DNA of 64,000 bases, taken from Planctomycetota bacterium. Lineage in GTDB: Bacteria > Planctomycetota > Planctomycetia > Planctomycetales > Planctomycetaceae. The stretch lies in assembly GCA_018242525.1 (NCBI GenBank), contig JAFEBS010000015.1, positions 27,330-91,329 on the forward strand, given 5' to 3'. Below the pieces are notes generated by a model, which was not told where the DNA came from, did not search any database, and saw nothing but the letters and a program-made list of their open reading frames with translations. Positions 5,685 through 35,180 of this stretch are shown one piece after another (the first letter of the stretch is position 1; the number at the start of each line of letters is the position of its first letter). A program made the position numbers and the translations under genes.

Positions 5685-5713
5685 GAACAGGGTTCAGCAG
5701 GAGCGTCCCGGGA

Positions 5714-15429: not shown

Positions 15430-17319
15430 TCACAATGATGACTTGTCTTGAACTGACTGAAGCCCAAGGACAGCAGCATTGGTTCCGGGCACTATTCGCA
15501 ATGCCATCTGGAATTCGACCGCGGCTTCTTCGCGGCGATCCAGGGCCGTCAACGTCAGCCCCAGGCCAACATGCAAGTCCGCTCGAAAACGGGCGGGGGC
15601 CGCATCCGGGGTCGCGCGAATTGCACGCCGATAACAATCCTCGGCCTGGTCGTATTCGCGTTGCGTCCAATGCATTTGTCCCAGCCGGGCCAGGGCAAAG
15701 AAGTCTTCGGGATTACGACGCACCGCGTCGACATAGCAGGCGAAGGCCTCTTCGGATTTGCCGCTCTTTTCGAGAAGTCGTCCCTTGTAAAACATGACAT
15801 CGGAAAGGCCGGGGAACAGTTCTTCGGCTCGCTCCAGCGGTCTCATCGCCTCGGCATTCTTCCCTCCCCAGCTGAGCACCTGAGCGACCTGGACGAGTGC
15901 CAGCGCCTGCTTCCGGCCATCCAGGTCACGGAGCACTTTTACAGAGATTCGCTGGATCACCTCGTCATTGGACGGCACCGAATGAACGACATCAAGGGCG
16001 ACCAGTTCATCGAACAGGGCCCATCCCAGTCGTCGATTGTTTTCAATGGTCGGATGCACGTGATCCAGGAATGATTCGTCCCCCGGGATGCGGTGTCCCG
16101 TCGTTTTTTCCAGCTCATCGGCAATGATTCGTGGAAAATCCACCAAGGGAACGTGTTGTTCGCGCGCGACCGTTTCGATGGCGGTCTGGATTTCCGAAAC
16201 GGCCCTCAATGGACAGACATCTTCGTCGATGGCTCGTTGAAAATACGGCAGCGATTCCTCCATCCTGCCAGACAGGGCCAGGGCATTGCCGGCATTCCAT
16301 TGCGTCATGGCGTGGTGCGGATCGACGGAAGCCGCGGCCAGGTAATCCGTCGCGGCCTCTGCGAATTGCCCGGCCTCATAAGCTCGGCGTGCCCGATTCG
16401 TTAACAGACTCCAACGACCGGGATCCGCCGGATCGACAATCCCCCGTTCGCTCTTGAAGGGGGTAAAATCGCGCACGTTTGAGGCGGGCTTGACGATCAC
16501 CAGCCTGGCTCCTGAGTCTCGTGCCAGGCCGCAGACTCGCTGAAGACTGCGCTGAAAGTGAACGATCACAGCATGTCGCCAGGCGGGATCGCGGTGGTAT
16601 TGTTCGGGACCGACGGAATGATCCAGGATCGTATCGACTTCGGGCGACAGCATCGGCTTTCGTTCCGTGGGCTGGCGTCCCATGATCGAGGCGAGCGCGG
16701 TGCCAACACGCGTTCGCGCCACGACCAGATCCGCCGCTTGAGTGACAACTCCCCGACGTTTGAAACTACCGTAAGTTCGCTCTTCCAGAAATTCGTTGTG
16801 TCCTTCGTAGAAGATAAACATGTCCGGTTGGAATTCCTCCAGTTCCTGCATCAATCGACTGATCCGGTAACTGGCGTACGAGATCCCGCCGCAATTGATC
16901 ACCTCCCAGTCACGATCTGGTTCGGCATCCTGCAACCGGGCGCGCAACCACCCCACAAACGACGTGGAGTCATGGTAGGGGTGGCCAAACGTTGTTGATC
17001 CACCGAGACAAAAGATCCGATACGTGTTTTGCTTCTTGCAGGCTGCGAAACTCTGATCATTGAAGAACATCCGCTTTGACGGATTTGTCTGGTACAAGTC
17101 ACCCTCGCGAACGAACAGTGGGGGCCCCGGACGGAACCCCACAAACGGGTCCGCGGACAGGTACTGCGGTTTGACACCTGCCATGGCCAGTGCCATTTCG
17201 AGCACCGTCAGCAGTAAACATGTCGAAACCAGGCTGAACACAATTCTCTTGCGAAGCGTCAACGGCTTCCGCGCCCGCCCGGACACTACGTTTGAAGTGG
17301 AGGAATGGATGTCGGTCAT
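15430..17319 (-). CDS. Membrane-anchored SGNH-hydrolase-like protein with C-terminal TPRs
   Basis: A 629-residue protein with one N-terminal membrane segment (about residues 25-48). An SGNH/GDSL-like domain follows: block I FCLGGSTTFG with the nucleophile Ser, block III YEGHNEFLE, and the late DHVHPTIENNRR with the catalytic Asp-His pair. TPR-like repeats lie inside (around residues 295-345) and at the C-terminus (around 470-615). The family acts on esters of sugars or lipids; the substrate is not evident. It begins 4 bases after the stop of the CRTAC1-like gene, so it is the third gene of the cytochrome-CRTAC1-SGNH operon. Confidence 0.82.
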   Translation of the reverse strand: MTDIHSSTSNVVSGRARKPLTLRKRIVFSLVSTCLLLTVLEMALAMAGVKPQYLSADPFVGFRPGPPLFVREGDLYQTNPSKRMFFNDQSFAACKKQNTYRIFCLGGSTTFGHPYHDSTSFVGWLRARLQDAEPDRDWEVINCGGISYASYRISRLMQELEEFQPDMFIFYEGHNEFLEERTYGSFKRRGVVTQAADLVVARTRVGTALASIMGRQPTERKPMLSPEVDTILDHSVGPEQYHRDPAWRHAVIVHFQRSLQRVCGLARDSGARLVIVKPASNVRDFTPFKSERGIVDPADPGRWSLLTNRARRAYEAGQFAEAATDYLAAASVDPHHAMTQWNAGNALALSGRMEESLPYFQRAIDEDVCPLRAVSEIQTAIETVAREQHVPLVDFPRIIADELEKTTGHRIPGDESFLDHVHPTIENNRRLGWALFDELVALDVVHSVPSNDEVIQRISVKVLRDLDGRKQALALVQVAQVLSWGGKNAEAMRPLERAEELFPGLSDVMFYKGRLLEKSGKSEEAFACYVDAVRRNPEDFFALARLGQMHWTQREYDQAEDCYRRAIRATPDAAPARFRADLHVGLGLTLTALDRREEAAVEFQMALRIVPGTNAAVLGLQSVQDKSSL

Positions 17320-19684: not shown

Positions 19685-19751
19685 AACAATGGATTCTCCG
19701 GACAAACGCATTTCTGCGCTGGCACGATGGATGGACGAGTCACGTGTCATG

Positions 19752-21632
19752 CTACCGCGAAAATCGATTCAATTGAATCCGATTGCCGAGATCGCGGTAG
19801 ATCTGCTCCTGTTCCTTGTTACCGATCCGTCCGTACAGCTGTGCCAGATGGTGGTAGGTCTTGGGATTGGAAGGGTCCAGCTCAATCGACTTTCTTGCCG
19901 CCTCGATCGCCTTGTCCGTTTCGTTGGCCCGGGACAGCAGGCCCGAATACCGTCCCCACGCGCCACCGTAGTTCGGTTGAACTTTCAGGTACCGCTCCAG
20001 CATGGCGCGCCCTGCATCTGCTTTACCCTGGTTGAGCAGCAGCGTGGCTGTTGTCGAAAGTGTCAATTCCCGATTCGGATCAATCGCCAGCACGGCGTTC
20101 CAATAGGTCATTGATTCCTGGAAACGACCATTCACTGCAGCAGCAGTCCCCAGAGCATTCAGCACCTCGACATCGTTCGGCCGCTCGCGGAGCACTCCTT
20201 CAAGGATTCTTGATGCCTGCGTGGCCAACTGAGGATTCGTCAACCGTTCGGCCTGCTCCGCCAGCCAGATTCCTTTGGCACGATCAACGACGATTCCCGG
20301 CAGTCGTTGTTCTGCACCGTCATACAACGCTGGCATCTCGAAGGTTTGGTCACCAGCCGGGATCGGCGTGACGGGTGCGCGTAGAATGCGATGATCCGAC
20401 TGCGTCGTATGGGGGACGTCGGAAGCATTCAATCGGGGCATATGGCAGGCGATGCAGGAGTCATCCGGCTGCCGTGCGCGCCGGTCGGATTCCGTGACCG
20501 CACATCCCCGCTCCGCATGACACTTCAAACATCGCTCGCGATAGAACGAGGTTTGAGTGTTCGCCGGCGGTTGCGAATGCGGATCATGGCAGGAAGTACA
20601 TCCCAGACTTCCTCCACTGTTCAGGTAACACGTGCTGGATCGCATTTGCTCAACCTGACTGACAGCACGCGTTTTCCCATCGTCGGTCGTCCTGTTTCCG
20701 CGAACGAAGATCAAGTAGGTCTCTTCCAACCGGGTTCCGGGCTGGAATTCTCCGAAGTGGCATCCGTCTCGCAAATACCTTCCCTCACCAGAAAGATGGC
20801 ATTGCGAGCAAACGTCCTCTCGCTGCGCCGGTTCCAGCTTCGACGGGTTGACGATTGGATCCGATTCGAATGATCCAGTCTGCTGGCGACGAAATTGAAT
20901 GTGGTCCGCCCCTGGTCCGTGACACCGTTCGCATCCGATGGCGATTTCCCGAAAAGGGGGATCTTCAAAAACGTCCGGGCGATCTGTCAGGTTCATCTGG
21001 CCGGCGTGACATTCCAGGCACGCAGAGGGAACCCGTCGATCAAATCGACGATGAGACGGCAGCTTGTATCCGGGAGAGAGATCCCACTTCCCGGAACGGC
21101 TGTACCACCCGATCGGGGACATGAACAACATTCCGCCACGATTGAACAGGTACGAACGCCCTTGAAGACCGGATCCGACGACAAATTCCACCTTGTACGC
21201 CTGGTCATAAATCGTCTGGCCTTTGTCATCTGTCAGTCGCTCGTGATGGAAGACCCCTTCCATTGTCTTGACAACCGAATAGTGATGATGTCCATCGGGT
21301 GAGAACGAGACGTTATGATTGTAGTCTTCCAACGGAGGTGCACTGCCAACTTTCCAAAGTGACTGCCCCATTCCACTGGCATGGAATCTCGCGGCAATTT
21401 CGGCATGACATTCAACGCAACTGTCGCTCCCCACAAACTTCGCCTTCAAGGCAGCGCGTGCTGCGGAAGAATCTTTCGAGGGTAAGTTGATGGCGGTCGA
21501 GGCCTGCGAACGGTCGGCTTGATCCAACGGCCGTTGATGTCCCAACCACGAAGAGACCCAGAAAACCACTCCACCTGCAACCGTGACCGCGATGATCAGG
21601 CCGGCGATTCGGGCTCTCGGCAACCGATCCAT
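19752..21632 (-). CDS. Seven-heme cytochrome c fused to TPR repeats
   Basis: A 626-residue protein with an N-terminal membrane anchor (residues 10-30). Seven CxxCH heme-binding motifs are visible: CVECH (72-76), then CLECH, CERCH, CSQCH, CTSCH, CLKCH and CIACH. The pattern GCERCHGPGADH is typical of multiheme cytochromes related to the doubled-CXXCH group. The last ~170 residues form TPR repeats. It would sit on the outer face of the inner membrane and carry or store electrons. The ATG has GAGG 14 bases upstream. It is first in an operon with a CRTAC1-like and an SGNH gene, divergent from the lipoprotein gene at 21981. A second copy lies at 30129-32069. Confidence 0.9.
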   Translation of the reverse strand: MDRLPRARIAGLIIAVTVAGGVVFWVSSWLGHQRPLDQADRSQASTAINLPSKDSSAARAALKAKFVGSDSCVECHAEIAARFHASGMGQSLWKVGSAPPLEDYNHNVSFSPDGHHHYSVVKTMEGVFHHERLTDDKGQTIYDQAYKVEFVVGSGLQGRSYLFNRGGMLFMSPIGWYSRSGKWDLSPGYKLPSHRRFDRRVPSACLECHAGQMNLTDRPDVFEDPPFREIAIGCERCHGPGADHIQFRRQQTGSFESDPIVNPSKLEPAQREDVCSQCHLSGEGRYLRDGCHFGEFQPGTRLEETYLIFVRGNRTTDDGKTRAVSQVEQMRSSTCYLNSGGSLGCTSCHDPHSQPPANTQTSFYRERCLKCHAERGCAVTESDRRARQPDDSCIACHMPRLNASDVPHTTQSDHRILRAPVTPIPAGDQTFEMPALYDGAEQRLPGIVVDRAKGIWLAEQAERLTNPQLATQASRILEGVLRERPNDVEVLNALGTAAAVNGRFQESMTYWNAVLAIDPNRELTLSTTATLLLNQGKADAGRAMLERYLKVQPNYGGAWGRYSGLLSRANETDKAIEAARKSIELDPSNPKTYHHLAQLYGRIGNKEQEQIYRDLGNRIQLNRFSR

Positions 21633-21980
21633 CGTGATTCAAGCCTCTTCATGGAACGAGGAACACAGGAAACGAGCAAAATCATGTCTTGGGAATCGAT
21701 CAGCCAGCCTCGAGACGTCAGGATCGAGTGCCTTCTACAATACTTTGTTGACCCGCTGCCTCAAATCGTGGCGAAATCCACGCTGTGAAAGTCCAGGTTC
21801 CGAGTTCGACGGATGGAATTCCATCCGAAATCCGGATGAAGAATTGCAAAAATCTGAAATGCGTGGAAGAATCTGGCAATACTCTTGACACTTGGTGAAA
21901 TTATCGTAAATCTCCATATCAATCGCAGTCGATTCATCTCAAATTCATCTTTCCTCTTTTCACAAATCGCGAGTCGATAC
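21633..21980. promoter_or_regulatory. Divergent intergenic region with a possible promoter
   Basis: This 348-base stretch separates the minus-strand cytochrome gene from the plus-strand lipoprotein gene and is visibly richer in A+T than its surroundings. A consensus -35 hexamer TTGACA occurs at 21885-21890 facing the lipoprotein gene; the best -10-like sequence at the right distance (TAAATC, 16 bases on) is weak. Both transcripts must start here. No gene is seen; the short open frames are shadows or leader sequence. Confidence 0.4.
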
Positions 21981-22451
21981 ATGCGCAGTGGATTTCTACT
22001 TGGCTTGGCATTTGTCGTTGGAATCGCCGGATGTGGTGCGCCCGCTGTTCCAAAGGCGCAACTGTTTCCCGTCAAAGGACGAGTTACTTTGGGAGGAGCG
22101 CCACTCACTGGCTGCACGCTGATTCTGATCCCGATCAAGGCTGATCCCGGAGCGGACGATGGCTATTCGGGTGTCTTGAACGACAAGGGTGAGTTCGAAC
22201 TTTCCTCGATGAAGGGGAAGGCGGGGGCGGCTGCCGGGAAGTACAAGGTGACGTTCTCGGTAGCGACCGTGGTGGATCCAAATTCAGAAGAGGGTCGTCA
22301 AGCCGCGATGAAGGCGATGATGTCGGGTGCGAGCGGCCCGCCAGCGGCCCCGAAGGAGCCACCCTATCCTGCCGAATACGGTTCGTTTAGTACGTCCAAA
22401 AAAGAAGTTGAGATTACTCGCGAAGCGAATGAGCTGTTGATCGCTTTGTAG
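21981..22451 (+). CDS. Small lipoprotein, carboxypeptidase-regulatory-like
   Basis: A 156-residue lipoprotein with signal MRSGFLLGLAFVVGIAGCG; the lipobox is GIAGC. The mature part starts with VKGRVTLGGAPLTGCTLIL, the pattern of the small transthyretin/carboxypeptidase-regulatory-like lipoproteins common in planctomycetes. These are often found beside DUF1559 genes, as here. The ATG at 21981 is chosen because it gives a proper lipoprotein signal; the frame is open to 21885. Function unknown. It probably shares a transcript with the DUF1559 gene 104 bases downstream, ending at the terminator at 23585-23617. Confidence 0.8.
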   Translation: MRSGFLLGLAFVVGIAGCGAPAVPKAQLFPVKGRVTLGGAPLTGCTLILIPIKADPGADDGYSGVLNDKGEFELSSMKGKAGAAAGKYKVTFSVATVVDPNSEEGRQAAMKAMMSGASGPPAAPKEPPYPAEYGSFSTSKKEVEITREANELLIAL

Positions 22452-22555
22452 TCATAGTCCTGTTTAATTCCGCTTATTGATTTAGGTTTGGCCAACGCGA
22501 TTTGCGTTTAAAGTCTGGCATTCTCCGTTCTGTCTTTTTTTTGAAGAGGTGTTTT

Positions 22556-23554
22556 ATGCAGAAGCGTTGCAGGCAAAGTCACTTGAAATGGCTGCGTGGA
22601 TTCACATTGATCGAGCTGCTTGTTGTGATTGCAATCATCGCAGTCTTGATCGCACTTCTGCTTCCTGCTGTTCAACAGGCGCGCGAAGCAGCACGGCGGA
22701 CGCAATGCAAGAACAACCTGAAACAGCTTGGGTTGGCATTGCACAATTATCATGACTCGAACAGATTGCTGCCAATCAACCGGTTCGGCAACCGAAATGT
22801 TGGATCGAATTTCATGACATCGACATGGGGGTCTGTCGGATGGATGGCTCAGATTCTGCCATTCATTGACCAGGCACCAATGTACAATCTGATCAACTTC
22901 AGCGATCAAACTGGCGGAAGTTCCTCCATCACGAACTCAAGTCAGGCGAACAACCTTGCCGTCCGTCGGTCGATCATCAATGCATTCCTGTGCCCCAGCA
23001 ATCCGCAGCAAGCGAAACAGACGAACGGGTCTGCTGGCGGGGACGATTGGGGGTCAGGCAAAGATGGCGGTCGAACGGATTATGTCGGGAACATGGGCTG
23101 GATGAATGCTGGGCACCGTGATTGTCCCCAGGGAATCTACAGCGGCAATTTCAATGGTGCTGCCTGGGCGGATGCAACCGACACCAGTCAGATGGCGGGC
23201 TGTAATGGTGTGATCGGCTGGCAATTCTGTGTTGGCCTGAACAATCTGACGGATGGTACTTCCACCACGATGATGGTTCTGGAAGACCACCATTGGCAGA
23301 CCAAGTCAAACCCTGGGAGCAGTTTTGGCGACAACTTGTGGTTTGGCCCCTATGCAATTCACAGCACCAAAATGCCGATCAACTGGGATCCAGCGAACGA
23401 TTTCCGCTGCGACCAGTGGAGCAGTGTCCACGTTGGTGGGGCACACGGCCTGTTGGCGGATGGCTCCGTGCGGTTTGTGGGAGAAAACGTGGATTGGCAA
23501 GTTCGCCGCGCTCTGGGGACTCGTGCTGGTTCCGAAGTTGCCGGGGAATTCTAA
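22556..23554 (+). CDS. DUF1559 protein with type IV pilin-like N-terminus
   Basis: A 332-residue protein of the planctomycete DUF1559 family. The prepilin-type signal RGFTLIELLVVIAIIAVLIA is followed by LLPAVQQAREAARR and CKNNLKQLGLALHNYHD, all family hallmarks; the H-X9-DG C-terminal motif appears as VGGAHGLLADGSVRFV. Such proteins are pseudopilin-like and exported, processed by a prepilin peptidase and probably assembled by a type II/IV pilus-like machine. The ATG at 22556 follows a GAAGAGGT Shine-Dalgarno. It is followed by a strong terminator. Confidence 0.93.
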   Translation: MQKRCRQSHLKWLRGFTLIELLVVIAIIAVLIALLLPAVQQAREAARRTQCKNNLKQLGLALHNYHDSNRLLPINRFGNRNVGSNFMTSTWGSVGWMAQILPFIDQAPMYNLINFSDQTGGSSSITNSSQANNLAVRRSIINAFLCPSNPQQAKQTNGSAGGDDWGSGKDGGRTDYVGNMGWMNAGHRDCPQGIYSGNFNGAAWADATDTSQMAGCNGVIGWQFCVGLNNLTDGTSTTMMVLEDHHWQTKSNPGSSFGDNLWFGPYAIHSTKMPINWDPANDFRCDQWSSVHVGGAHGLLADGSVRFVGENVDWQVRRALGTRAGSEVAGEF

Positions 23555-23675: not shown

Positions 23676-24962
23676 ATGGGAAACAGCGAGAATCCCGGTT
23701 CCACCGAAGTGACTCAGTGTTCACTGTCCGAACGCGAAGCATCCGTTCGAAGCCTTGACTCCAAGGATTCCGCTCCCAACGTTGGGAGAAGGTTGGTCCG
23801 ATATCTGGCGGTTGCCTTGCTCGGTGCGGGATTCTTCTTCGGACATCGTTATTGGACCAGATCGTGGGAACAGACTTACCTGATGAAATGTCGGGAAGCC
23901 AGGGACGCTCGCCAGTGGCCGGAACTTCGTAGAATCAGCGAGCAGTGGGGGGCCTGGGACCGATCGAATGCAGATGCCACGTTGTTTCTGGCGGATGCAG
24001 CCAACCATTTGCGAGATTTTGAGACGGCCGCAAGGTGTCTCGCGCTGATTCCGGAATCCCACCCGAAGTCGTTGCCGTCGCTCGTGGCACTTTCCACACT
24101 ACAATTTGGGCCGTTGAACCAGCCCATCGACGGTGTGCGAACCTGCGAGCGGATTTTGAAACTTGATCGCAGGGCGACGGCCGCTCATCAGCAGTTGATC
24201 GAATTCTACGCGGTGACGCTGCAGCGACGAAAACTGGAGCACCAAATCAGGTTCGCCATTGAATGTTCACGCGAACCCCCCAAGGCGTACATTTACCTGT
24301 TTCTGATGGACACGATGAGAATCTCGGGAGCCAGTGAATCGAATACCCGGTGGCTGGAACAGTCTCCAGAATCGGAACTCTTCGCAGTCGCCCGGGTGCT
24401 GCACATGCCGGAACCTGACAGCGGACTCCGAACGCCCTCGGGAGATGACAAGTACTCATTGGTGGATGCACTGTTCAAGCGTTTTCCCGGGAACCTGGAA
24501 TTACTGGCTTACAAGGTCGATGTGAGTTTGCGGAGCGGAGACATTCAGGAGGTGACTTCGCTGCTGTCGTCTCTGCCACCCGAAGCCGATGACGATAACC
24601 GCTTCTGGCGAGCCAAGGGGTGGTTGCATCTGAACCGCAACGAGTTGACGAAGGCCAGGGACGCATTGAACGAGGCGGTCCATCTTTTCCCCATGGATTG
24701 GAACGCCCGCAACTTGCTGGCGGATGTCTTGCGACGGGAAAGCCTGCTGGCCGACGCCGAGAAGTTGCATGATCTTGTTCAGTCGGCACGGCAGTTGAGA
24801 ATCCAGATCAACGCGATCGCACTGGACTCGGAAATTCCCACGGAAGTCCTGACCGAATTAGCCAGGCTCGCGAAACAATGTGGTGATGCACAGGTCGCCG
24901 ATGCATTAAACCGGCGTTTAGGTTTGGCCCCGTCCGATGCGGGGGGCGGCCACCCACGTTGA
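23676..24962 (+). CDS. Membrane-anchored TPR protein (paralogue 1)
   Basis: A 428-residue protein with a single membrane segment (about residues 45-62) after a polar N-terminus, then TPR-like helical repeats. It is a paralogue of the TPR proteins at 26982 and 33966: they share blocks such as LQFGPLNQPIDGVRTCERIL, VTLQRRKLEHQIRFAIE and FWRAKGWLHL followed by LFPMDWNARNLLADVLRRE. No catalytic motif is seen. It is followed directly by a CRTAC1-like lipoprotein gene and very likely works with it at the cell envelope. No good Shine-Dalgarno precedes the ATG, so the start is not certain. Confidence 0.8.
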   Translation: MGNSENPGSTEVTQCSLSEREASVRSLDSKDSAPNVGRRLVRYLAVALLGAGFFFGHRYWTRSWEQTYLMKCREARDARQWPELRRISEQWGAWDRSNADATLFLADAANHLRDFETAARCLALIPESHPKSLPSLVALSTLQFGPLNQPIDGVRTCERILKLDRRATAAHQQLIEFYAVTLQRRKLEHQIRFAIECSREPPKAYIYLFLMDTMRISGASESNTRWLEQSPESELFAVARVLHMPEPDSGLRTPSGDDKYSLVDALFKRFPGNLELLAYKVDVSLRSGDIQEVTSLLSSLPPEADDDNRFWRAKGWLHLNRNELTKARDALNEAVHLFPMDWNARNLLADVLRRESLLADAEKLHDLVQSARQLRIQINAIALDSEIPTEVLTELARLAKQCGDAQVADALNRRLGLAPSDAGGGHPR

Positions 24963-25037
24963 CAGTTGGAATCGTGCAAAATAGCATCGAATTCGTGCCA
25001 AACTTTCTTCCGCCTCTTCTCCTCATCGGTGACTTCG

Positions 25038-26939
25038 ATGTTCGATCGCTTCGATTCAAGTCGCCCAGGAGATTCCCCAGCGGGTGGCAAGGTGGGTCAT
25101 TCGACTGGCCCGATAAATCATCGAACCATCGTCATCGTCTCCGATCAGACTGTCACGGTGCTCTCGCGTCGCTGGCGACTTGTGGTCTCGTTGATGGTGT
25201 TCCTGATTCCCGCGTGCAATTCGTCTTCAACGCCCGTCGCCACAACGGCTCCTTCACCGGCGGCGGGGTTGCTGGCGACAAGCAAGCCGGTTGTCTTGAG
25301 TAAGGTGTTTGATCTGCGGTTGCCAACCGCTCCGGTGAACCCGTCCAGCGATTTGAAATCGCCTGTTTTTGACGATGTTGCTCGTTCCACGGGTTTGAAT
25401 CATACCTACGAGACGGGCGAAAAAAGCCTGTTGTTGATGGTTCAGCCAACGGGTGGTGGATGTGGTTGGATCGACTATGACGTTGACGGACTTTGGGATT
25501 TGTACTTGAATCAGGGAGGAAATCCGTCACAAGTGCGATCCCCCGATCAGCCTTCGGATCAGTTGTTCCGCAACATGGATGGGGGACAATTCCAACCAGT
25601 CACAAGTCTGGCAAACATCGACGAACGCGATTACAGCCAGGGTGTCTGTGTGGGCGACTTCGACAACGATGGATTCAGCGACATCCTGATTACCAACGTG
25701 GGGCTCTGCACCCTCTTCAAGAATCAGGGAGATGGAACCTTCCGCGACGTGACCGAAGCAACCCTTGATCAGATCGCCGGATGGCATAGCAGTGCCGCCT
25801 GGGGGGACATCGATCGTGATGGCGACCTGGATCTGTATGTGTGCCGCTACGTCAACTTTGATCGCTTCCACCCGCAGATCTGCCGTGCAGCCGATGGTAC
25901 TCAGCGGATGTGCCAGCCGAATGAAATCGATCCGAGGCCGGACGAGTTGTATCTGAACGCAGGCGATGGAAACTTTAAGGCAGTGGCACGCGAGCGTGGG
26001 GCGTACGGTCCTTCCAACAAGGCGTTGGGAGTTGCCATCGCGGACTTCAACAACGACGACTGGCCCGACATTTATGTTGCCAACGATGCAACGCCCAACT
26101 TCCTGTTCCTGAATCAGCAGGACGGTCAATTCGTGAACATGGCCGACGTACTGGGGTGCGCCGTCGGCTCTGATGGTCGCGCCCAGGCGAGTATGGGTGT
26201 CGCCGTGGGGGATTACGATCACAATGGTTTTCTCGATCTGTACCTGACCCACTATGAGGGTGAATGGAGCACTCTTTACAGAAACTTGGGAGCTCAGGGC
26301 TTTTCCGATGTCACCGCCGCTGCCGGTGGCGTATCCATGACTTCCCCCCTGGTGGGGTTTGGTACGGTGATGGAAGACTTCAATCAGGACGGGTACGAAG
26401 AACTTGTGATCGTCAACGGTCACCTGGACGATCCCGGGCATCTGGGAATCGATTTGGCAATGAAACCGCAGCTCTTCAGCTTAAGTGGACTAAAAATCAT
26501 CGATAATTCGGCGCGGGGCGGTGAGTATTTCAATCATCGCTATATTGGGCGCGGCCTGGCCACCGCTGACTACGATGGTGACGGTGATCTGGATGTGGCG
26601 ATCGTCCATCAGAACACCCCGATGGCACTGCTCCAAAACAACTCGTCACGCGGACATTGGCTGCAGCTGCGGTTTATCGGGCGCGCCAGCAATCGGCACG
26701 GGATCGGCGTCCGTGTGACCGTGCGCAGCGGCGAGGATGTATTCATGCGCGAACTGGCGGGCGGGACAAGTTACTGTTCGTCTCAACAGCCCGTGCTGGT
26801 GTTTGGGCTCGGGAATCGCATTCGGCCGTGTGATGTGACGATTCAGTGGCCCAACGGGATACGTCAAACGCTTTTGGATGTTGCAGTCGATCGATCGATG
26901 GTCATCGTCGAACCCACAGATGGCGAATTGCAGCAATAA
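25038..26939 (+). CDS. CRTAC1-like lipoprotein (FG-GAP/VCBS + ASPIC/UnbV), copy 1
   Basis: A 633-residue predicted lipoprotein: the hydrophobic stretch ends in LIPACN. The propeller has FG-GAP/VCBS blades with acidic loops such as DYDVDGLWDLYL, DFDNDGFSDILI, DIDRDGDLDLYV and DFNNDDWPDIYV, and the C-terminal ASPIC/UnbV domain contains GHWLQLRFIGRASNRHGIG and IQWPNGIRQTL. A pair of cysteines sits in the inserted loop (ICRAADGTQRMC). The ATG at 25038 is used; the frame extends to a TTG at 24966, 3 bases after the previous stop. It is closely similar to the protein at 28193-29953. The acidic loops suggest calcium binding; role unproven. Confidence 0.87.
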   Translation: MFDRFDSSRPGDSPAGGKVGHSTGPINHRTIVIVSDQTVTVLSRRWRLVVSLMVFLIPACNSSSTPVATTAPSPAAGLLATSKPVVLSKVFDLRLPTAPVNPSSDLKSPVFDDVARSTGLNHTYETGEKSLLLMVQPTGGGCGWIDYDVDGLWDLYLNQGGNPSQVRSPDQPSDQLFRNMDGGQFQPVTSLANIDERDYSQGVCVGDFDNDGFSDILITNVGLCTLFKNQGDGTFRDVTEATLDQIAGWHSSAAWGDIDRDGDLDLYVCRYVNFDRFHPQICRAADGTQRMCQPNEIDPRPDELYLNAGDGNFKAVARERGAYGPSNKALGVAIADFNNDDWPDIYVANDATPNFLFLNQQDGQFVNMADVLGCAVGSDGRAQASMGVAVGDYDHNGFLDLYLTHYEGEWSTLYRNLGAQGFSDVTAAAGGVSMTSPLVGFGTVMEDFNQDGYEELVIVNGHLDDPGHLGIDLAMKPQLFSLSGLKIIDNSARGGEYFNHRYIGRGLATADYDGDGDLDVAIVHQNTPMALLQNNSSRGHWLQLRFIGRASNRHGIGVRVTVRSGEDVFMRELAGGTSYCSSQQPVLVFGLGNRIRPCDVTIQWPNGIRQTLLDVAVDRSMVIVEPTDGELQQ

Positions 26940-26981: not shown

Positions 26982-28193
26982 ATGCATTTCTGGCACACGA
27001 ACAATCGCTGGCGAATACTGGCGTTCCTGTGTCTGCTGATCGCCGCTGTCATCAGTTTCTGTGTTTACAGGCTGTTTGTTCCGAGCATTGCTCAACTGCG
27101 GCAGGAATGTCTGCAAGCGGCAAACGCGGGTCAATGGAAGTCGGTGGAGGCGATCGCGACGCGCTGGATCAGGATCGCCCCCAACAGTGGAGAGCCCCGG
27201 ATGCAACTGGGTGAATCTCTCTTTCGGCAGCGAAAGTTCCAGCCAGCCCTGGCATGTTACCGAAGCGTTCCTCAAACCGCGCCCGAGGCCGAATCGGCGG
27301 CGATTTCCCTGATGGAATTGCAGTTTGGCCCACTCAACGAGCCAATCGATGGCGCGATCACGTGCCGGCAATTGTTGGCGCGCAATCCTCATTCCAAAGT
27401 TGCCCGGCAGCGCCTGATTTTTTTCCTGGCACTAACCCTGCAGCGAACTGAACTGGTCCACCAGATCCGATCAGCGATCGAGTCGGATAGTGAACCAATT
27501 GAGGCGTACGTCTACCTGTTTATGGTCGATTCGCTGATGTTCTCGAACGGAATTGAAGCCAATTCGCGTTGGCTGCGGGGAGATCCGAATTCGGAATTGT
27601 TTGAAGTGGCCCAGGCGATCTTTGTGGCTGAAATGCTCGACTTCAACATTTCGCTGGATGACTTGGCTGCCGCGCAAGCCGCGCGGCGTGATGCCGCCAG
27701 AAAGGAAGAAGTTCTGCAGAAGCTGCTTGCCAAATATCCCCACAATGCCGAATTACTGGCCTACACGATCCAGAAGTTAATCCAGGTTGGAGACGTGACA
27801 GCGGTGGTCAAGTTGCTGGCCGAAGCGACCGTGGAGTGTGAAACCGACTCCAGGTTCTGGAGATACAAGGGTTGGGTCCATGTGCAAAGAGGCGAGCTTG
27901 TGGATGCCCAGGCATCGTATCGTCGGGCCATCGAGCTGAATCCGCTCGACTGGGTCACTCGTCACATGCTGGCGGACGTACTGCAGCAGGAACTGCGCTT
28001 TGACGAGGTCAAAGCCCTGCGCGAATTGACGGTCCGCGGTCGCAAACTTCATAACGCCCTGCGGAATGCACCGAGTGCCCGGGACGTTCCCCGGGATCTT
28101 CTCGTGGAACTCTCCGAATTCTCGGCAAGTTGCGGTGACGAACAAGCATCCGGAGCCCTGCGGAAGCGGATTGAACAGGATCGAGGCCGGTAA
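26982..28193 (+). CDS. Membrane-anchored TPR protein (paralogue 2)
   Basis: A 403-residue protein with an N-terminal membrane segment (residues 10-29) and TPR-like repeats. It is a clear paralogue of the proteins at 23676 and 33966 (shared blocks LQFGPLNEPIDGAITCRQLL, LTLQRTELVHQIRSAIE, FWRYKGWVHVQRGELVDAQ). Its TAA overlaps the ATG of the next CRTAC1-like gene by one base, which implies translational coupling and matched production of the two proteins. Confidence 0.83.
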   Translation: MHFWHTNNRWRILAFLCLLIAAVISFCVYRLFVPSIAQLRQECLQAANAGQWKSVEAIATRWIRIAPNSGEPRMQLGESLFRQRKFQPALACYRSVPQTAPEAESAAISLMELQFGPLNEPIDGAITCRQLLARNPHSKVARQRLIFFLALTLQRTELVHQIRSAIESDSEPIEAYVYLFMVDSLMFSNGIEANSRWLRGDPNSELFEVAQAIFVAEMLDFNISLDDLAAAQAARRDAARKEEVLQKLLAKYPHNAELLAYTIQKLIQVGDVTAVVKLLAEATVECETDSRFWRYKGWVHVQRGELVDAQASYRRAIELNPLDWVTRHMLADVLQQELRFDEVKALRELTVRGRKLHNALRNAPSARDVPRDLLVELSEFSASCGDEQASGALRKRIEQDRGR

Positions 28194-29953
28194 TGTCGAT
28201 GCATAAATCCGTGTCCAACACTCTCCGGCAGCGTCTCCTCTGGCTTGCGGTGGCCACCTCTGCCTGGGTTGGCTGCCACTCGTCAACGAGCGTGCCCTCA
28301 ACCCCACAGGCGACGGAACCGGCGAAAGTCCGGGCAACCGTCTCGCGAATCTCCGAAGATATTCGCGCCTTGCGGAGCGAAGGGGCGAAAATCAAGAACA
28401 GCACCTTTTTTACTGAGGCCGATTGTGGAATCGATTTCACCTATCTGAACGGTGTGACGGGCAAGGCATTGATGGTGGAGTCGACGGGCGGAGGGTGCGC
28501 CTGGCTGGACTACGACAGGGATGGCTGGCCCGACTTGTATCTTGGTCAGGGGGGCGACCCCGCTGCGCCTGCTCAGGAGACTCGACCCATCGATCGCATC
28601 TATCGAAACCTTGGTAATGGATCGTTCCAGGATGTGACAGCGGGCACGGGAATCGAAGAACATGGTTATGGCCAGGGTGTGGCCGCTGGCGATTACGACA
28701 ACGATGGGTTCGAGGACATCTTCGTTACAAACGTTGGCTTCAACGTGCTGTTTCATAACCAGGGAGACGGCAGCTTTCAGCCCGTCGAGCTCACGGTTCC
28801 CGCGGCAGAAAGGCTGTGGAGTACGAGTGCCGCCTGGGGAGACATTGATCGCGACGGCGACCTTGATCTCTACGTCGCACGCTACTGTGACTACGACCCC
28901 TATCACCCCAAGCCGTGTTTCCGTCAAAACGGGGCGCCGGGAACCTGTCATCCCAAGGATGTCGAACCGTATCCGGACGAATTCTACCTGAATGAGGGAA
29001 ACGGGACCTTTCGGCCAGTCGCCAGAGAACGCGGATTGTCTGGCCCCGGAAACCGCGCCCTTGGGGTGGCCATCGCCGATTTTGACAATGACGACTGGCC
29101 CGACATCTTTGTTGCGAACGATACCACCATGAACTTCCTGTTCATTAATCGCAAGGACGGTTTCTTTGATGACAAGGCTGAGTTCCTGGGATGTGCAGTC
29201 AATGTCAATGGCAACCCCCAGGCCAACATGGGAATCGCCGTGGGAGATTATGATGGAAATGGGTTTCTCGACTTGTATGTGACGCACTTCCATTCCGAAT
29301 GGAATACGCTCTACCAGAACCTGGGACCAAACGGCTTTCACGACGTGACTGCGCACGCGAAACTGGCGACGCCGACAATGGAAAAGCTGGGATTCGGTAC
29401 GGTGATGGCCGACTTTGACCAGAATGGTCTGCAGGAGTTGCTGATGGCCAACGGTCACATCGACGATGTCACTGACAAGGGAATCGAATACGAGATGAAA
29501 GCCCAGTTGTTCGCGTACAACGGCAAGACCTGGGACGACACGAGTGGTAACGCGGGGGCGTTTTTTCACAAGAAGACAGTTGGTCGGGCCGTGGCCACTT
29601 CCGATTATGACCTGGATGGAGATCTGGATGTCGTCTACGTTCCCCAGAATTCGCCGACCACCCTGCTTCGAAATGACTCACGACGCGGCCACTGGTTGAA
29701 GCTCAGGTTCATCTGCCGAACCAGCAACCGGTTCGGCATCGGAACACGGGTCACACTTCATGGCGGTTCGTCAAAGTGGATGCAGGAACTGGCCGGTGGA
29801 ACCAGTTATTGTTGTTCCCATGAACCCGTCCTGGTGTTCGGCCTGGGGGACTCGATCGGTCCCTATCAACTGAAGATTCGGTGGCCCAACGGACAGACAA
29901 GTACCATGTCCGACATTCAGATCGACCAACCCCTGACCATCTTCGAACCGTAA
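28193..29953 (+). CDS. CRTAC1-like lipoprotein (FG-GAP/VCBS + ASPIC/UnbV), copy 2
   Basis: A 586-residue lipoprotein (lipobox AWVGC). Acidic-loop blades include DYDRDGWPDLYLGQGG, DYDNDGFEDIFV, DIDRDGDLDLYV and DFDNDDWPDIFV; the ASPIC/UnbV domain has GHWLKLRFICRTSNRFGIG and IRWPNGQTSTM. It mirrors the copy at 25038 along its length, including the loop with two cysteines (CFRQNGAPGTC). The start overlaps the stop of the TPR gene. The pair 26982/28193 therefore looks like a duplication of the pair 23676/25038. Confidence 0.88.
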   Translation: MSMHKSVSNTLRQRLLWLAVATSAWVGCHSSTSVPSTPQATEPAKVRATVSRISEDIRALRSEGAKIKNSTFFTEADCGIDFTYLNGVTGKALMVESTGGGCAWLDYDRDGWPDLYLGQGGDPAAPAQETRPIDRIYRNLGNGSFQDVTAGTGIEEHGYGQGVAAGDYDNDGFEDIFVTNVGFNVLFHNQGDGSFQPVELTVPAAERLWSTSAAWGDIDRDGDLDLYVARYCDYDPYHPKPCFRQNGAPGTCHPKDVEPYPDEFYLNEGNGTFRPVARERGLSGPGNRALGVAIADFDNDDWPDIFVANDTTMNFLFINRKDGFFDDKAEFLGCAVNVNGNPQANMGIAVGDYDGNGFLDLYVTHFHSEWNTLYQNLGPNGFHDVTAHAKLATPTMEKLGFGTVMADFDQNGLQELLMANGHIDDVTDKGIEYEMKAQLFAYNGKTWDDTSGNAGAFFHKKTVGRAVATSDYDLDGDLDVVYVPQNSPTTLLRNDSRRGHWLKLRFICRTSNRFGIGTRVTLHGGSSKWMQELAGGTSYCCSHEPVLVFGLGDSIGPYQLKIRWPNGQTSTMSDIQIDQPLTIFEP

Positions 29954-30128: not shown

Positions 30129-32069
30129 TCATTCGGGCTGCTCGCGAACTTCTGTCCCCTCTGCAGGAGCATCGGCGGGACGTTCGCGGGCGAGCAACTG
30201 TTGATGTCGCAGTGCGGCTGCCCGGTCGCCGACTTTTGTATAGACATCCGCCACGAAGCCATGCAGCTTCCAGAGCGACGGATTCAGTTCCAGGCCGCGT
30301 TCGGCCGCCGCGATCGCACCTGCGGCATCACCGCGATGCATCAGCGTGCCCGCCAGCCGACCGTAGTACGACGCGTGCCAGGGATTCATCGCGATAAAAC
30401 GCTTCAGCATGCGTTCCGCGGGAACCAGTTGGAAATTATCGTGATACAACGCCGCGAGGGCTTGAATGGTTTGTTCGTGTCGAGGATTCAACTGCAGAAC
30501 CTTTGTCCACCAGCGTTCCGCTTCTCTCGGCCGATCTTGCAGAATCTCGCAATTCCCCAGTGCGATGTAAAGTTCCACATCTTCTGGCGCCTTGGCAATC
30601 AATTGCTTAAGACGCGTAGCAGCCGACTGAGCGAGATCGCTTTGGTCCGGGAATTCGCTGGCGTCACTGGCCATCTTGAGCGCCTTCGCACGCTCGATCT
30701 CGTACTCGGGAATTGGCGTGCTGGCGAACTGAAAGATCTTGGATTTCAGCGGCTCGACATCCTCTTCTGCGGCGACCGGTTCGCGGAGGATGCGATGATC
30801 CGCCACGGATCGATGCAGGACGTTTTCGGCGGAAATCGACGGCATGTGGCAGTTGGTGCAGCGATCCAGATACGGTGCCGCATCACGTTTTGATTTCGGC
30901 AGGGAACACCCTCGATCTGCGTGGCACGTCAGGCACTTTTGCCGGAAGTACTCGTCCTTGACCGCGGTTTCCGGCAGCGAGTGCGGGTCGTGGCAGGACG
31001 TGCAGCCCATGCGTCCCTCACTCCGTTGAAAACAGGTGCTGGAAACCATGTGCTCGGCCTGAGTCGCCGCTCGGCCCGATCGAGTGATCCCCGGCCCGTG
31101 TGATTTGACAAACACAATCCAGTTGTCCTCCAGGCGTTCGCCGGGTCGAAAATCATGGGGCGTCCGCCCGGTTCGCAGAATGCGGGTTTCGCCCCGCAGA
31201 TGGCACTGGGCACAGATCGCCTCGCGGCGATCCATATCAAGCCGGCGGGGATTCACAATGGGGTCATGAGCACTCTCGCCGGAATTCTGGAGCGCAACAT
31301 GTTCGCGACCGGGACCATGACATCGTTCGCAACCGATCGCCTCTTCCAGGAACGCGGGGACTTTGAATCGATCCGGTTCTCCACGAGTGAAATTGGGAAG
31401 ACCGGAATGGCAGGTCAGACAGCCGCCCGTTACGCGTCGCTCAAAGCGCATGTGGGATTCCGGCAGATAATCGGGCGACAGCCCCCATTTCCTGGTGTCC
31501 GAGTACCACGAAATGCTGGATTTAAACAACAGCCCGTCGTGATCGATGACGTATCCTCGTCCCCGCTTTCCGGAACCAAGCACATATGCAACGGGAAATG
31601 ACTGGTCATAAATGACTTCACCCGCGGAATCCACCATGATTTCATGGTGCCGAATTCCATCGGCTGAGACTTCCACGCGATACCGGCGATTGCCTGGCGG
31701 GGCGAAACTCAACTGCTTCGTGTAATCCTCAATCGGGGAGGCGTGTTCTACTTTGGCGAACGATTTCGCCATGGGATGCGACTGATATTTCTCCCAGATT
31801 TCTGAATGGCAGTCGCGACACGCATCGCTCCCGACGTAGTCCGACAGGGAAGGATCGATCGCATTGTCGACTCGATAGGGGATTGGCAGTTCATGACCGT
31901 TTGAACTCACGGTCTGGCTGTAATCCGAGGACTTACTTGATCGATCAGGCCGAACGGGCTCCCCGAGCCTGAACCAGAGGAAAACTGTGGCGATCACCAA
32001 GGGAACGGTCAGGCACAGTGCGAAAAATCGTCGATGGAGCACGAGTCCAATCCTTGTGATGCACGACAC
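30129..32069 (-). CDS. Seven-heme cytochrome c fused to TPR repeats, second copy
   Basis: A 646-residue relative of the cytochrome at 19752-21632. After an N-terminal membrane segment there are seven CxxCH motifs: CRDCH, CLTCH, CERCH, CAQCH, CTSCH, CLTCH and CTNCH, in the same order and spacing style, and a TPR region near residues 490-620. The start given is a GTG. A second GTG at 32042 has AAGGA upstream and would place the membrane segment right at the N-terminus, so it may be the true start. Divergent from the CRTAC1-like gene at 32189, with about 120 bases between for both promoters. Predicted periplasm-facing electron carrier. Confidence 0.9.
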   Translation of the reverse strand: MSCITRIGLVLHRRFFALCLTVPLVIATVFLWFRLGEPVRPDRSSKSSDYSQTVSSNGHELPIPYRVDNAIDPSLSDYVGSDACRDCHSEIWEKYQSHPMAKSFAKVEHASPIEDYTKQLSFAPPGNRRYRVEVSADGIRHHEIMVDSAGEVIYDQSFPVAYVLGSGKRGRGYVIDHDGLLFKSSISWYSDTRKWGLSPDYLPESHMRFERRVTGGCLTCHSGLPNFTRGEPDRFKVPAFLEEAIGCERCHGPGREHVALQNSGESAHDPIVNPRRLDMDRREAICAQCHLRGETRILRTGRTPHDFRPGERLEDNWIVFVKSHGPGITRSGRAATQAEHMVSSTCFQRSEGRMGCTSCHDPHSLPETAVKDEYFRQKCLTCHADRGCSLPKSKRDAAPYLDRCTNCHMPSISAENVLHRSVADHRILREPVAAEEDVEPLKSKIFQFASTPIPEYEIERAKALKMASDASEFPDQSDLAQSAATRLKQLIAKAPEDVELYIALGNCEILQDRPREAERWWTKVLQLNPRHEQTIQALAALYHDNFQLVPAERMLKRFIAMNPWHASYYGRLAGTLMHRGDAAGAIAAAERGLELNPSLWKLHGFVADVYTKVGDRAAALRHQQLLARERPADAPAEGTEVREQPE

Positions 32070-32188: not shown

Positions 32189-33934
32189 ATGTCTCGCGTG
32201 AAACTCTTACTGGCAATGCTCTGGGTGGCGATCGTGGTCGCGGGATGTGGTGCGCCCGAGCCGTCCAGGAATGCACCCGTTGAACAAAAGCTCGGCACAG
32301 AGAGCGCTTCACCGGCACTTCTGTTTCCAACGGTCAAGCCGAGTGGCGATTCATCGGAATCATCCGTACCGGGAACACTCGCATTCGTCGATGTCGCCAG
32401 GGAACGCGGATTGACCTATGAGTGGCCGATGAAACCGCGCCCCATGACGGCACTGGATGCATTTGGTGCAGGCTGCGCGGCATTTGATGCTGACAATGAC
32501 GGCTGGCAGGACATTCTGCTGGTTGCCAGCCCGACTCCTCTGTTGTTTCGCAATGAGGAGGGATTGAGATTCACGAATCTCACGGACGAGAGCGGCCTGA
32601 AATCGATCTCCGGCCACTGGACGGGTTGTGCCGTTGGTGATTACGACGCAGACGGTCTGCTGGATCTGTTCATCACGGGTTATCACCAGTTAAGACTGAT
32701 GAAGAACGTTGATGGCCGCCATTTTCGTGACGTGACCGTCAGCGCCGGTCTCGATCCGTCCAATCAAGGGTACTGGGGAGCCAGCGCTGGGTTCATGGAC
32801 TTGGATGGTGATGGATGGATTGACCTCGTGATTCTCAACTACGTCGTGTATGGCCCGGATTCTCAAAAGTATTGCGAGTATGCACCCGGAGTGATTTCGG
32901 GGTGCGGACCAAGAACCTATCCCCCGGAGCGGGGTCAAATCTGGCGAAACAAGGGTGGCACTGGTTTCGAGCTCGTGCCTGAAAGCCAGGGAATGCAGCA
33001 GACTCATGGTGTTGGTCTGGTGCTGGCGTTTACCGACCTGGACGATGACGGTCGGCAGGATTTCTATATTGGTAATGACGGAGTCACAGCGGATCTGATG
33101 TTCAATCGGGGGAACTTCGAGTTTGAAAACATTGCCGTCCTGGCCGGAGTCGCCACGTCCGACGACGGCGGTGCCGTGTCCGCCATGGGGGCCGACTGGG
33201 GGGATTACAATCGCGATGGGAGGCTGGACCTGGCCGTTACGAACTGGCAGGGTGACTCGTTCGTACTGTTTCAGAACCTTGGAAATCGATTGTTCGTCGA
33301 TTGTGCCAGGTCAACCGATCTCGCCCGGGCGACCAGGAATCACTTGGGATTCGGGTCAAAATGGATCGATTTTGAAAACGATGGCTGGCCGGATCTATTC
33401 TTCGTCAATGGTCATGTCTACGACAACTCGGCCGAAATCCATGGATCGAGCGTTCCCTTCCGACAGCCAATGTGCCTTTTCTGGAATGACCGCGGACGGA
33501 AGTTTTTTGACATTGTGCCCCGGCTTGGCACCGACGTTCAACGGACCATGGTTGGGCGCGGATCCGTCACGATCGACTTTAACAATGATGGTCGGGTCGA
33601 TCTTCTGGCGGTCGATTACGAGGGACCAACGGTCCTGCTGGAAAACAGGACCGACACCTCGAACCATTGGCTGACAATCGACCTGAGGGGAAAGGCGCCG
33701 AATACGTTTGCCTACGGAACTCGCCTCACCGGAAAAGCTGGCGACCGAATCTGGGTGGCCGAAGTCTCGCCAGCTTCCAGTTATCTTTCATCGAGCGATC
33801 CGCGGATTCATTGGGGATTGGCGGAATTGAAAAGCCTGGAATCGCTCACGATTCGCTGGCCAACCGGAGCCAGTCAAACCTTGAACAACATTCCTGCCGA
33901 CAGGGTCCTGCGTGTCGTTGAGGGACAGCCCTGA
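32189..33934 (+). CDS. CRTAC1-like lipoprotein (FG-GAP/VCBS + ASPIC/UnbV), divergent type
   Basis: A 581-residue lipoprotein with lipobox VVAGC. Acidic propeller loops include DADNDGWQDILL, DYDADGLLDLFI, DLDGDGWIDLVI and DFNNDGRVDLLA; the C-terminal ASPIC/UnbV-like domain has NHWLTIDLRGKAPN and IRWPTGASQTL. It lacks the loop shared by the copies at 25038 and 28193 and has instead KYCEYAPGVISGCGPRTYPP, so it belongs to a different subgroup. It is followed by a TPR paralogue; here the order is CRTAC1 then TPR, the reverse of the tandem pairs upstream. Confidence 0.87.
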   Translation: MSRVKLLLAMLWVAIVVAGCGAPEPSRNAPVEQKLGTESASPALLFPTVKPSGDSSESSVPGTLAFVDVARERGLTYEWPMKPRPMTALDAFGAGCAAFDADNDGWQDILLVASPTPLLFRNEEGLRFTNLTDESGLKSISGHWTGCAVGDYDADGLLDLFITGYHQLRLMKNVDGRHFRDVTVSAGLDPSNQGYWGASAGFMDLDGDGWIDLVILNYVVYGPDSQKYCEYAPGVISGCGPRTYPPERGQIWRNKGGTGFELVPESQGMQQTHGVGLVLAFTDLDDDGRQDFYIGNDGVTADLMFNRGNFEFENIAVLAGVATSDDGGAVSAMGADWGDYNRDGRLDLAVTNWQGDSFVLFQNLGNRLFVDCARSTDLARATRNHLGFGSKWIDFENDGWPDLFFVNGHVYDNSAEIHGSSVPFRQPMCLFWNDRGRKFFDIVPRLGTDVQRTMVGRGSVTIDFNNDGRVDLLAVDYEGPTVLLENRTDTSNHWLTIDLRGKAPNTFAYGTRLTGKAGDRIWVAEVSPASSYLSSSDPRIHWGLAELKSLESLTIRWPTGASQTLNNIPADRVLRVVEGQP

Positions 33935-33965
33935 TGGTGACGATTTGAAGAGATGCTGGATTCTT

Positions 33966-35180
33966 ATGACTTCCCATCGGCGCTTCATTCTGATCGCTGC
34001 CTTGACCGTTGCATTTGTCGCTGCGCTCGGTTCACCGGTTGCCTGGCGACGCTGGAACGATCATCGGCGGAGCCAGCTCACCAGACTGTGTCGGACTGCT
34101 CGTCAGAGCCAGCGATGGGAGGATTTGCAGGACCTGGCTGATGACTGGACTCGATGGGATCCGCAGAACGGCGACGCCTGGATGCAGCGCGGCATTGCCG
34201 CCAGCGCCCGGCAGGCATGGGGGGACGCTGCGGAATCCTTCTGGCGCATTCCCGACTCAGATCCGCAGGCGATTCCTGCCATGATCGAACTCTCCAAACT
34301 CGCCTTTACACATCTCAATGATCCGCTGAAAGGCGTTGAAGCGTGCGAGCGAATCCTGAGGATCGACCCGCGTACCCCCGGCGCTCGACAACAACTGATC
34401 TGGTTCTATGCGATGACACTGCAAAGGGCAAAACTGTTGCAGCAAATCCGTGAGGCCATCGAGTTGCAAAGTGAACCACGCGAAGCCTACGTCTATTATT
34501 TTCTATTATACTCGCTGAGATCCCAGGATGCCGTCGATCTGAATACGCGCTGGTTGCAGGCGACGCCAGACTCGGAACTGTTTCTGGTTGCGCGTGTGAT
34601 CAATCAGCCGGACCCGCAATCCGAGTCCCCCGAAACGCCCGCCACATTGCCGGCAGCGACGGAAAGTCGCGGCGAACTGTCGACAAAATCAAAACTGGAT
34701 CAGGTTCAGGAACTCGTGATTCGATTCCCGCACAACCTGGAATTGATCGCCTATCAGGCCGAGGAACGCCTGACAAACGGCGACGTCTCAGCGGCTGCTG
34801 CGATCCTGAAAAACGCACCCGAATCAGCCGCGCAGGATGGTCGTTTCTGGCGTTTCAAGGGCTGGCTTCACGAGTCCAATAATGAACTGGATGCAGCGGT
34901 TGCGGCCTATCGAAGAGCGCTGGAACTGCACCCGGTTGACTGGAATGCCATGAACCGTCTGGCCATCGTCGAGCGTCGGCGACAGAACCTTTCTGAAGTT
35001 GAGAAATTGACGAATCTCGTCGAGCGTGAAAACGAAGCTCGAAAAAACCTGCGGCAACAAAAGGTGGAAACACCATCCCTCCAGATCCTGCAGGAACTGG
35101 CCGGACTGTTTCGTGACTGCGGAAACCAGGAGTTCGCAGTTGCTCTCGAACGACGATTGACCGGGACACGAAGACGCTAA
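33966..35180 (+). CDS. Membrane-anchored TPR protein (paralogue 3)
   Basis: A 404-residue protein with a membrane segment at residues 8-25 and TPR-like repeats. It is the third paralogue of the family at 23676 and 26982 (LAFTHLNDPLKGVEACERIL, MTLQRAKLLQQIREAIE, FWRFKGWLHESNNELDAAV). The ATG at 33966 is chosen because the membrane segment follows at once; the frame is open to 33912, where it would overlap the end of the CRTAC1-like gene. Probably cotranscribed with that gene. No enzymatic motif. Confidence 0.82.
   Translation: MTSHRRFILIAALTVAFVAALGSPVAWRRWNDHRRSQLTRLCRTARQSQRWEDLQDLADDWTRWDPQNGDAWMQRGIAASARQAWGDAAESFWRIPDSDPQAIPAMIELSKLAFTHLNDPLKGVEACERILRIDPRTPGARQQLIWFYAMTLQRAKLLQQIREAIELQSEPREAYVYYFLLYSLRSQDAVDLNTRWLQATPDSELFLVARVINQPDPQSESPETPATLPAATESRGELSTKSKLDQVQELVIRFPHNLELIAYQAEERLTNGDVSAAAAILKNAPESAAQDGRFWRFKGWLHESNNELDAAVAAYRRALELHPVDWNAMNRLAIVERRRQNLSEVEKLTNLVERENEARKNLRQQKVETPSLQILQELAGLFRDCGNQEFAVALERRLTGTRRR

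Follow-up and report, generated by a model that had tools for sequence, protein, structure and literature searches.

The two heptaheme cytochromes c encoded in the window, the whole 64,000-nucleotide stretch of DNA analysed here, belong to a real and widespread subfamily for which we found no existing name. Judged by its predicted structure, the heme part of these proteins is firmly assigned to the c554/OcwA/MccA superfamily and carries a beta-sheet insert. A sequence-only reading of the window had described both minus-strand ORFs, and the translations confirmed them together with their identical order of seven CxxCH motifs, including GCERCHGPG (Table 1). The C-terminal TPR region also held up in both proteins: Pfam TPR models scored above cut-off in the C-terminal third of each copy, and residues 454-628 of copy 1 form ten helices in the predicted model. 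The two copies share 38% identity over 614 aligned columns (E 6e-146), and GSG and WYS...W motifs sit in the beta-sheet insert of copy 1. A scan of positions 21400-22000 for promoters and terminators found none.

Table 1. Coordinates of the two cytochromes and their neighbours in the window.
Feature	Position	Strand	Remarks
Heptaheme cytochrome c with C-terminal TPR region, copy 1	30129..32069	-	GTG start, 646 aa
N-terminal hydrophobic helix, copy 1	residues 6-33		predicted model
Heme-motif region, copy 1	30846..31820	-	residues 83-407; residue 1 is the one following the start
CxxCH starts, copy 1	C83, C216, C246, C285, C355, C378, C403
Beta-sheet insert, copy 1, hemes 1-2	31479..31688	-	residues ~127-196; predicted strands and conservation
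TPR region, copy 1	30183..30707	-	residues ~454-628
Heptaheme cytochrome c with C-terminal TPR region, copy 2	19752..21632	-	626 aa
GDSL-like and TPR protein	15430..17319	-	4 bases downstream of the 17324..19750 ASPIC gene
FG-GAP / ASPIC-UnbV protein	17324..19750	-	1 base downstream of copy 2
Small-lipoprotein group member	21885..22451	+	own HMM; no Pfam match
DUF1559 protein	22502..23554	+	pilin-like N-terminal methylation motif
TPR protein	23676..24962	+
FG-GAP / ASPIC-UnbV protein	24966..26939	+
TPR protein	26982..28193	+
FG-GAP / ASPIC-UnbV protein	28193..29953	+	lipoprotein-like N-terminus by eye
FG-GAP / ASPIC-UnbV protein	32189..33934	+	divergent from copy 1; lipoprotein-like N-terminus by eye
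TPR protein	33912..35180	+

The family extends well beyond the window. The sequence-only reading spoke of two copies; both are present here, but this undercounts the source genome (8.45 Mb, 99 contigs), which holds eight homologues at E <=1e-10, each with seven motifs. Seven of the eight have a long C-terminal region, missing in L008 (399 aa). A first scan of the genome collection with a single protein as query gave no match. The later spread scan, with one genome per species, matched at least 593 stretches, at least 514 of which encode a relative, and the best 80 of these relatives, representing 79 distinct loci, were kept for study. By phylum labels that come mostly from metagenome bins and may be wrong, the 79 loci divide into 72 from Planctomycetota, 3 from Acidobacteriota, 2 from Bacteroidota and 1 each from Ignavibacteriota and Calditrichota. 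The fetched loci were also searched by HMM with no requirement for heme motifs, which matched 132 ORFs, a set that counts the same gene under several loci; exactly seven motifs occur in 125 of them, while the other seven have 8, 8, 6, 6, 5, 2 and 0. This constancy exceeds chance. The alignment used below contains 81 sequences, derived from 81 seven-motif locus genes by omitting L018:8476-9630 and L049:3410-5296 and adding the two window proteins (A3/A4). L059, with five motifs, was dropped before counting, and the cytochromes of L037, L042 and L074 were lost to the overlap filter, though each of these loci has a seven-motif ORF. No paper on the family was found among the listed titles and abstract openings of open-licence papers.

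Fusion of a heptaheme part to TPRs is common in Planctomycetota; TPR_14 matches the C-terminal regions in 75 of 78 cases. It is not limited to that phylum, since the wider search that the sequence-only reading had proposed found the fusion in four further phyla. TPRs occur in all six tested C-terminal regions from outside Planctomycetota, with none in the L062 region. Within Planctomycetota the family occurs sporadically: at E 1e-40 it was found in 19 of 199 sampled genomes, the source genome included, and at E 1e-30 in 15 of the 21 genomes formed by the source and 20 relatives. Homologues lacking TPRs also exist, namely L008 and the near-identical pair L087 and L088. A strongly hydrophobic stretch precedes heme 1 in 68 of the 81 sequences, and 13 conform to a simple lipobox pattern, which hints at export and anchoring of the cytochromes.

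A quick tree grouped copy 1 with L014 (SH-aLRT 96) and copy 2 with L053 (98). Since each copy pairs with a relative from another genome, the two must have separated before those splits; on this tree they are diverged paralogues rather than sisters, and the pairings rule out recent tandem duplication as the origin of the cluster. Locus L015 carries two cytochromes (4404-6521 and 9809-11752) with identical heme domains, each following an ASPIC gene, which reflects either a recent duplication of the cytochrome-ASPIC pair or an assembly effect. Cytochromes are arranged as tandem pairs in L024 (4728-8619), L041 (9029-12921) and L028 (2-3915).

The full-length model of copy 1 had a pLDDT of 88.0 and a pTM of 0.84. 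Because TPR proteins fill the search lists of the full-length protein, the heme part (residues 70-432) was modelled separately with AlphaFold (pLDDT 89.9, pTM 0.88). Foldseek placed OcwA first for this part (E 5.2e-9), followed by MccA (E 0.014). VIA-align gave a Z-score of 17.8 for OcwA (6I5B; 3.3 A over 297 residues), 12.9 for 6QVM (4.1 A, 248 residues) and 10.4 for MccA (4RKM; 4.2 A, 267 residues); the value for c554 (1BVB; Z 5.9, 5.7 A, 158 residues) lies close to that of the best unrelated row (Z 5.4). Neither NrfA nor HAO chains appeared among the 50 heme-part structure matches listed, which in itself excludes nothing. A profile of the 81 sequences matched the same solved structures, with OcwA at E 1.2e-18, c554 at 1.8e-10 and MccA at 1.6e-8, and hhalign paired it with OcwA at a probability of 99.2; the homology lies chiefly around hemes 1-4. 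Chain 6R2Q_A ranked second in this profile search, and with copy 1 alone as the query it came just above OcwA (E 6.9e-5 and 1.5e-4, respectively). We take this chain to be MtrA of an MtrCAB complex; its structure file labels it cystathionine beta-synthase.

The insert comprises eight strands in the copy 1 model. Across the 81 sequences G164 and G166 are invariant, W187 and W194 are kept in 76 and 75, respectively, and P198 and R210, directly past the insert, are again invariant. The OcwA report describes a beta-sheet domain as common to OcwA and MccA and as having no equivalent in other NrfA-family proteins (PMC6703420).

No full-length curated family in Pfam or NCBIfam passed its cut-off, while short generic heme domains did. 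Paired_CXXCH_1, the doubled-CXXCH model among the suggested checks, passed in both copies (29.4 and 39.6 bits; cut-off 20.6) and in 80 of 81 sequences at E 0.01, but it is generic and says little about function. Cytochrome_C554 (PF13435) gave partial matches (21.5 and 21.9 bits; cut-off 20.8) and likewise hit 80 of 81 at E 0.01; TIGR01905 passed in copy 1 (27.4 bits, cut-off 25.2) and failed in copy 2 (23.9). The NrfB and OmcA/MtrC homes that had been suggested for these proteins did not stand: none of these models passed its cut-off in the window proteins, and the best folds were instead OcwA, the undecaheme cytochrome, MccA and c554. For NrfB, copy 2 reached 19.4 of 184 bits with NF008659, and TIGR03146 and PF22678, neither listed for copy 1, hit 11 and 2 of the 81 sequences at E 0.01. 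For OmcA/MtrC, TIGR03507 gave 21.9 of 209.3 bits (copy 2) and PF22113 20.3 of 30 (both copies). NrfA was also rejected (PF02335, 15.4 bits for copy 1 against a cut-off of 24.1; 18 of the 81 sequences hit it at E 0.01, the strongest at 2.3e-6), as was the DmsE/MtrA decaheme group, in which copy 1, with seven motifs, reached 52.3 of 192.2 bits (TIGR03508) and 73.3 of 325 bits (NF041028).

We then examined conserved residues that could serve as distal heme ligands. The invariant His, Met, Cys and Lys residues outside the motifs are H256, C345, H362, H418, H424 and M408, the last of which adjoins a motif (CHMP) and was set aside from the ligand count. Position 99, located 12 residues past the heme-1 His, is Met in 73, His in 5 and Lys in 3 of the 81 sequences; the second cytochrome of the tandem pairs in L024 and L041 has Lys there. 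With M408 aside, six ligand-type positions stand against seven hemes, and this suggests one open heme, which by analogy with OcwA we infer to be probably heme 2; the predicted model itself carries no hemes. With one open heme, the heptaheme protein may itself be a reductase. As the sixth distal ligand, C345 or the less conserved H140 would have to serve. Seventy of the 81 sequences retain H140, which, like position 336, is not invariant, whereas C345 is present in 81 of 81.

The OcwA report gives bis-His ligation for hemes 1, 3, 4, 6, 7 and 8, His-Met ligation for heme 9, and open hemes 2 and 5 (PMC6703420). By profile alignment, the position of OcwA H281, the first active-site His of its heme 2, is His in 43, Gln in 34 and another residue in 4 of the 81 sequences, and this variation argues against a fixed ligand there; the residue that follows is mostly Val (53 of 81). 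A single numbering offset puts the published His-His pairs 281/282 and 380/381 on HH dipeptides, the sole two in the part of OcwA that aligned. How hemes 5-7 line up with those of OcwA is ambiguous: hhalign pairs them with OcwA hemes 5-7, while the CHDPH and CHMP motifs, together with the extent of the structural alignment, favour OcwA hemes 6-8. C387 is kept in 77 of 81 sequences. An obligatory C345-C387 disulfide is unlikely, as C387 is missing while C345 stays in L066, L068, L089 and L092, the rows from neither Planctomycetota nor Acidobacteriota; in L092 an unaligned Cys lies close by, and the loss may therefore partly be an alignment shift.

Both cytochrome genes lie in a cluster rich in ASPIC/UnbV and TPR genes. 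Its first half reads ASPIC(-), cytochrome(-), one unassigned ORF, small lipoprotein(+), DUF1559(+) and TPR(+), and its second half ASPIC(+), TPR(+), ASPIC(+), cytochrome(-), ASPIC(+) and TPR(+). Copy 2 and the ASPIC and GDSL-TPR genes behind it are spaced so tightly on one strand that they form an operon by layout. Across 90 cytochromes, a set that includes five stretches of the source genome and the window, an ASPIC gene adjoins 26, compared with a mean of 11.5 and a maximum of 19 in 2000 within-locus label shuffles. ASPIC genes make up 18% of immediate neighbours, as against 1 to 6.5% of genes two to eight places away. For these neighbour counts, genes were picked as longest ORFs and assigned with HMMs of our own making; many of the contigs are short, and the loci are not all separate, L014 and L021 for instance sharing a contig. 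The linkage is mostly confined to one clade of 43 rows that contains both window copies. Within three genes of its 42 mapped members, ASPIC was found in 27, DUF1559 in 17, TPR in 16 and the lipoprotein in 9, as against 4, 6, 4 and 1 of 39 outside the clade. DUF1559 lies within three genes of 27 of the 90 cytochromes, but it is numerous (75 match rows in the source genome), so its nearness counts for less. Of the 20 ASPIC matches in the source genome, 7 are accounted for by the window cluster, with 4, and contig C89, with 3; a third cytochrome copy is encoded on that contig. Five to seven DxDxDG motifs occur in 46 of 56 ASPIC proteins, and many of the N-termini look lipoprotein-like by eye. A Cys-rich motif in the first ASPIC protein of the cluster was rejected as a shared feature, being present in 1 of 56. 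Outside Planctomycetota no shared neighbour gene was seen by eye, with Pfam run on four such ORFs. We know of no function for bacterial ASPIC/UnbV FG-GAP proteins.

Pfam analysis of 30 window ORFs (29 of the 44 longest-ORF picks plus one other ORF) agreed with the earlier remark that no terminal reductase or oxidase gene is nearby. That lack may mislead, however, because the cytochrome itself has a terminal-reductase fold. Among the other window genes, a protein with two BMC (microcompartment shell) domain matches stands alone beside the cluster (35228-35842, minus strand), and a single ORF encodes a Ser/Thr protein kinase with a caspase-like domain (38819-41485, plus strand). A cohesin-domain protein (44374-46323, minus strand) adjoins a HEAT-repeat protein (46368-48455), and a DUF1549/DUF1553 and DUF1501 pair, with the planctomycete-specific cytochrome type, occupies 55194-58993 (plus strand). 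Beside another heptaheme copy, L011 (contig C36, 1204-9469) encodes a TPR-tailed sulfatase, two phosphodiesterase-like proteins and one sulfotransferase-like protein.

The reading that we tentatively prefer, at somewhat short of an even chance, is that these cytochromes are reductases or other oxidoreductases, probably held outside the cytoplasm by the N-terminal helix. Given the modelled fold, a reductase function is plausible. Electrons would come in from another cytochrome and pass through the c554-type four-heme unit and the three other hemes, ending at heme 2. The distal side of heme 2, where no His is invariant, would be the likely substrate site, near the insert. On the donor side, PF03264 (NapC/NrfH), the model for a quinol-oxidising partner, has no match in the source genome, which speaks against this reading. 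N- or S-oxyanions would be the first candidate substrates, by analogy with OcwA and MccA. The TPR tail may hold the cytochrome to co-encoded FG-GAP or other TPR proteins, and a complex with ASPIC/FG-GAP partners is plausible in the one clade only. The sequence-only reading had likewise proposed a docking tail. As a putative role this is reasonable and fits the one-clade ASPIC linkage, but the tail by itself is weak evidence because at least two unrelated kinds of protein from the same genome, a GDSL-like one and a sulfatase, also end in TPRs. A more specific version is distinctly unlikely as a whole: unnamed seven-heme reductases in which C345 and position 99 bind heme or belong to the active site, so that an OcwA-type core would contain a His/Cys or heme-thiol site, with the TPR tail docked to an ASPIC/UnbV (CRTAC1) propeller.

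A non-catalytic relay, in which seven six-coordinate hemes pass electrons between cytochromes and the TPRs clamp the partners, appears unlikely, though several results point its way. Two decaheme models, DmsE-like and GSU2203-like, cover hemes 2-7, though with scores far below their cut-offs; the 6R2Q chain stands high in both sequence searches; and H140 could be a further ligand. Yet the fold matches OcwA and MccA, both enzymes, 6R2Q is absent among the best 50 heme-part structure matches listed, MtrB_PioB has no match in the source genome, and neither H140 nor position 336 is invariant. That the two best folds are OcwA and the Carboxydothermus S-layer cytochrome would also suit an OcwA-like surface protein delivering electrons to minerals, humics or shuttles with the aid of the pilin-like DUF1559 protein. 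We regard this as very unlikely: DUF1559 is enriched near the ASPIC-linked clade, but its abundance means that nearness may mean little, and the missing MtrB_PioB weighs here as well. Least probable is a redox sensor or assembly scaffold whose hemes tune TPR binding and do no respiratory work. The TPR tails on the GDSL-like protein and the sulfatase fit it, as does the fact that the GDSL-like protein is the sole recognised enzyme among the scanned cassette genes; against this, a strict seven-motif set across five phyla would presumably be costly to keep, and the existence of TPR-less homologues indicates that the heme part has a use of its own.

These results add to a superfamily of nitrogen, sulfur and metal reductases a multiheme family from five phyla that no full-length curated model covers, and tie one of its clades to ASPIC/UnbV FG-GAP proteins. 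Should such a complex exist, generic repeat-protein labels have been hiding a respiratory or detoxifying system; if the C345 and position-99 reading is true, planctomycete FG-GAP genes would be partners of multiheme redox enzymes. A parallel exists in a different system: PMC12758564 describes a CRTAC1/FG-GAP gene between or beside hydrazine-synthase-like genes in planctomycetes and other bacteria, and extra c554 domains in some hydrazine-synthase-like proteins.

Among known cytochromes, the closest is OcwA, the nonaheme terminal reductase of Thermincola potens. Hemes 1-4 follow a like order in both, with CHGPGxxH at heme 3, and the OcwA beta-sheet domain (residues 75-156; PMC6703420) lies, like the insert, between hemes 1 and 2 by our numbering. 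OcwA membership was nonetheless rejected, as OcwA has nine hemes with hemes 2 and 5 open and both window proteins have seven CxxCH motifs. Moreover, OcwA continues after the heme part with a three-helix bundle and the window proteins with TPRs; the OcwA H281/H282 pair has no counterpart in copy 1 (Q-A) or copy 2 (Q-V); and C345 is extra relative to OcwA. The residue 12 past the heme-1 His, mostly Met in the family, is His in OcwA, c554 and MccA. MccA, the octaheme sulfite reductase of Wolinella, shows the CHDPH and CHMP motifs too when aligned with the family, but it has eight hemes and no TPR tail, and membership was rejected on the seven motifs of the family. MccA has two copper-binding cysteines, to which the C345/C387 spacing shows no obvious fit. 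The undecaheme S-layer cytochrome of Carboxydothermus ferrireducens (6QVM) has eleven hemes, and its sequence likeness to the family comes in short separate stretches. Nitrosomonas c554 resembles the family at hemes 1-4 and through the Cytochrome_C554 Pfam domain, yet it is a tetraheme protein of 211 residues without TPRs. The DmsE (TIGR03508) and GSU2203 (NF041028) decaheme models align with hemes 2-7 without large gaps and contain ten motifs, in contrast to the seven, followed by a TPR tail, of the window proteins.
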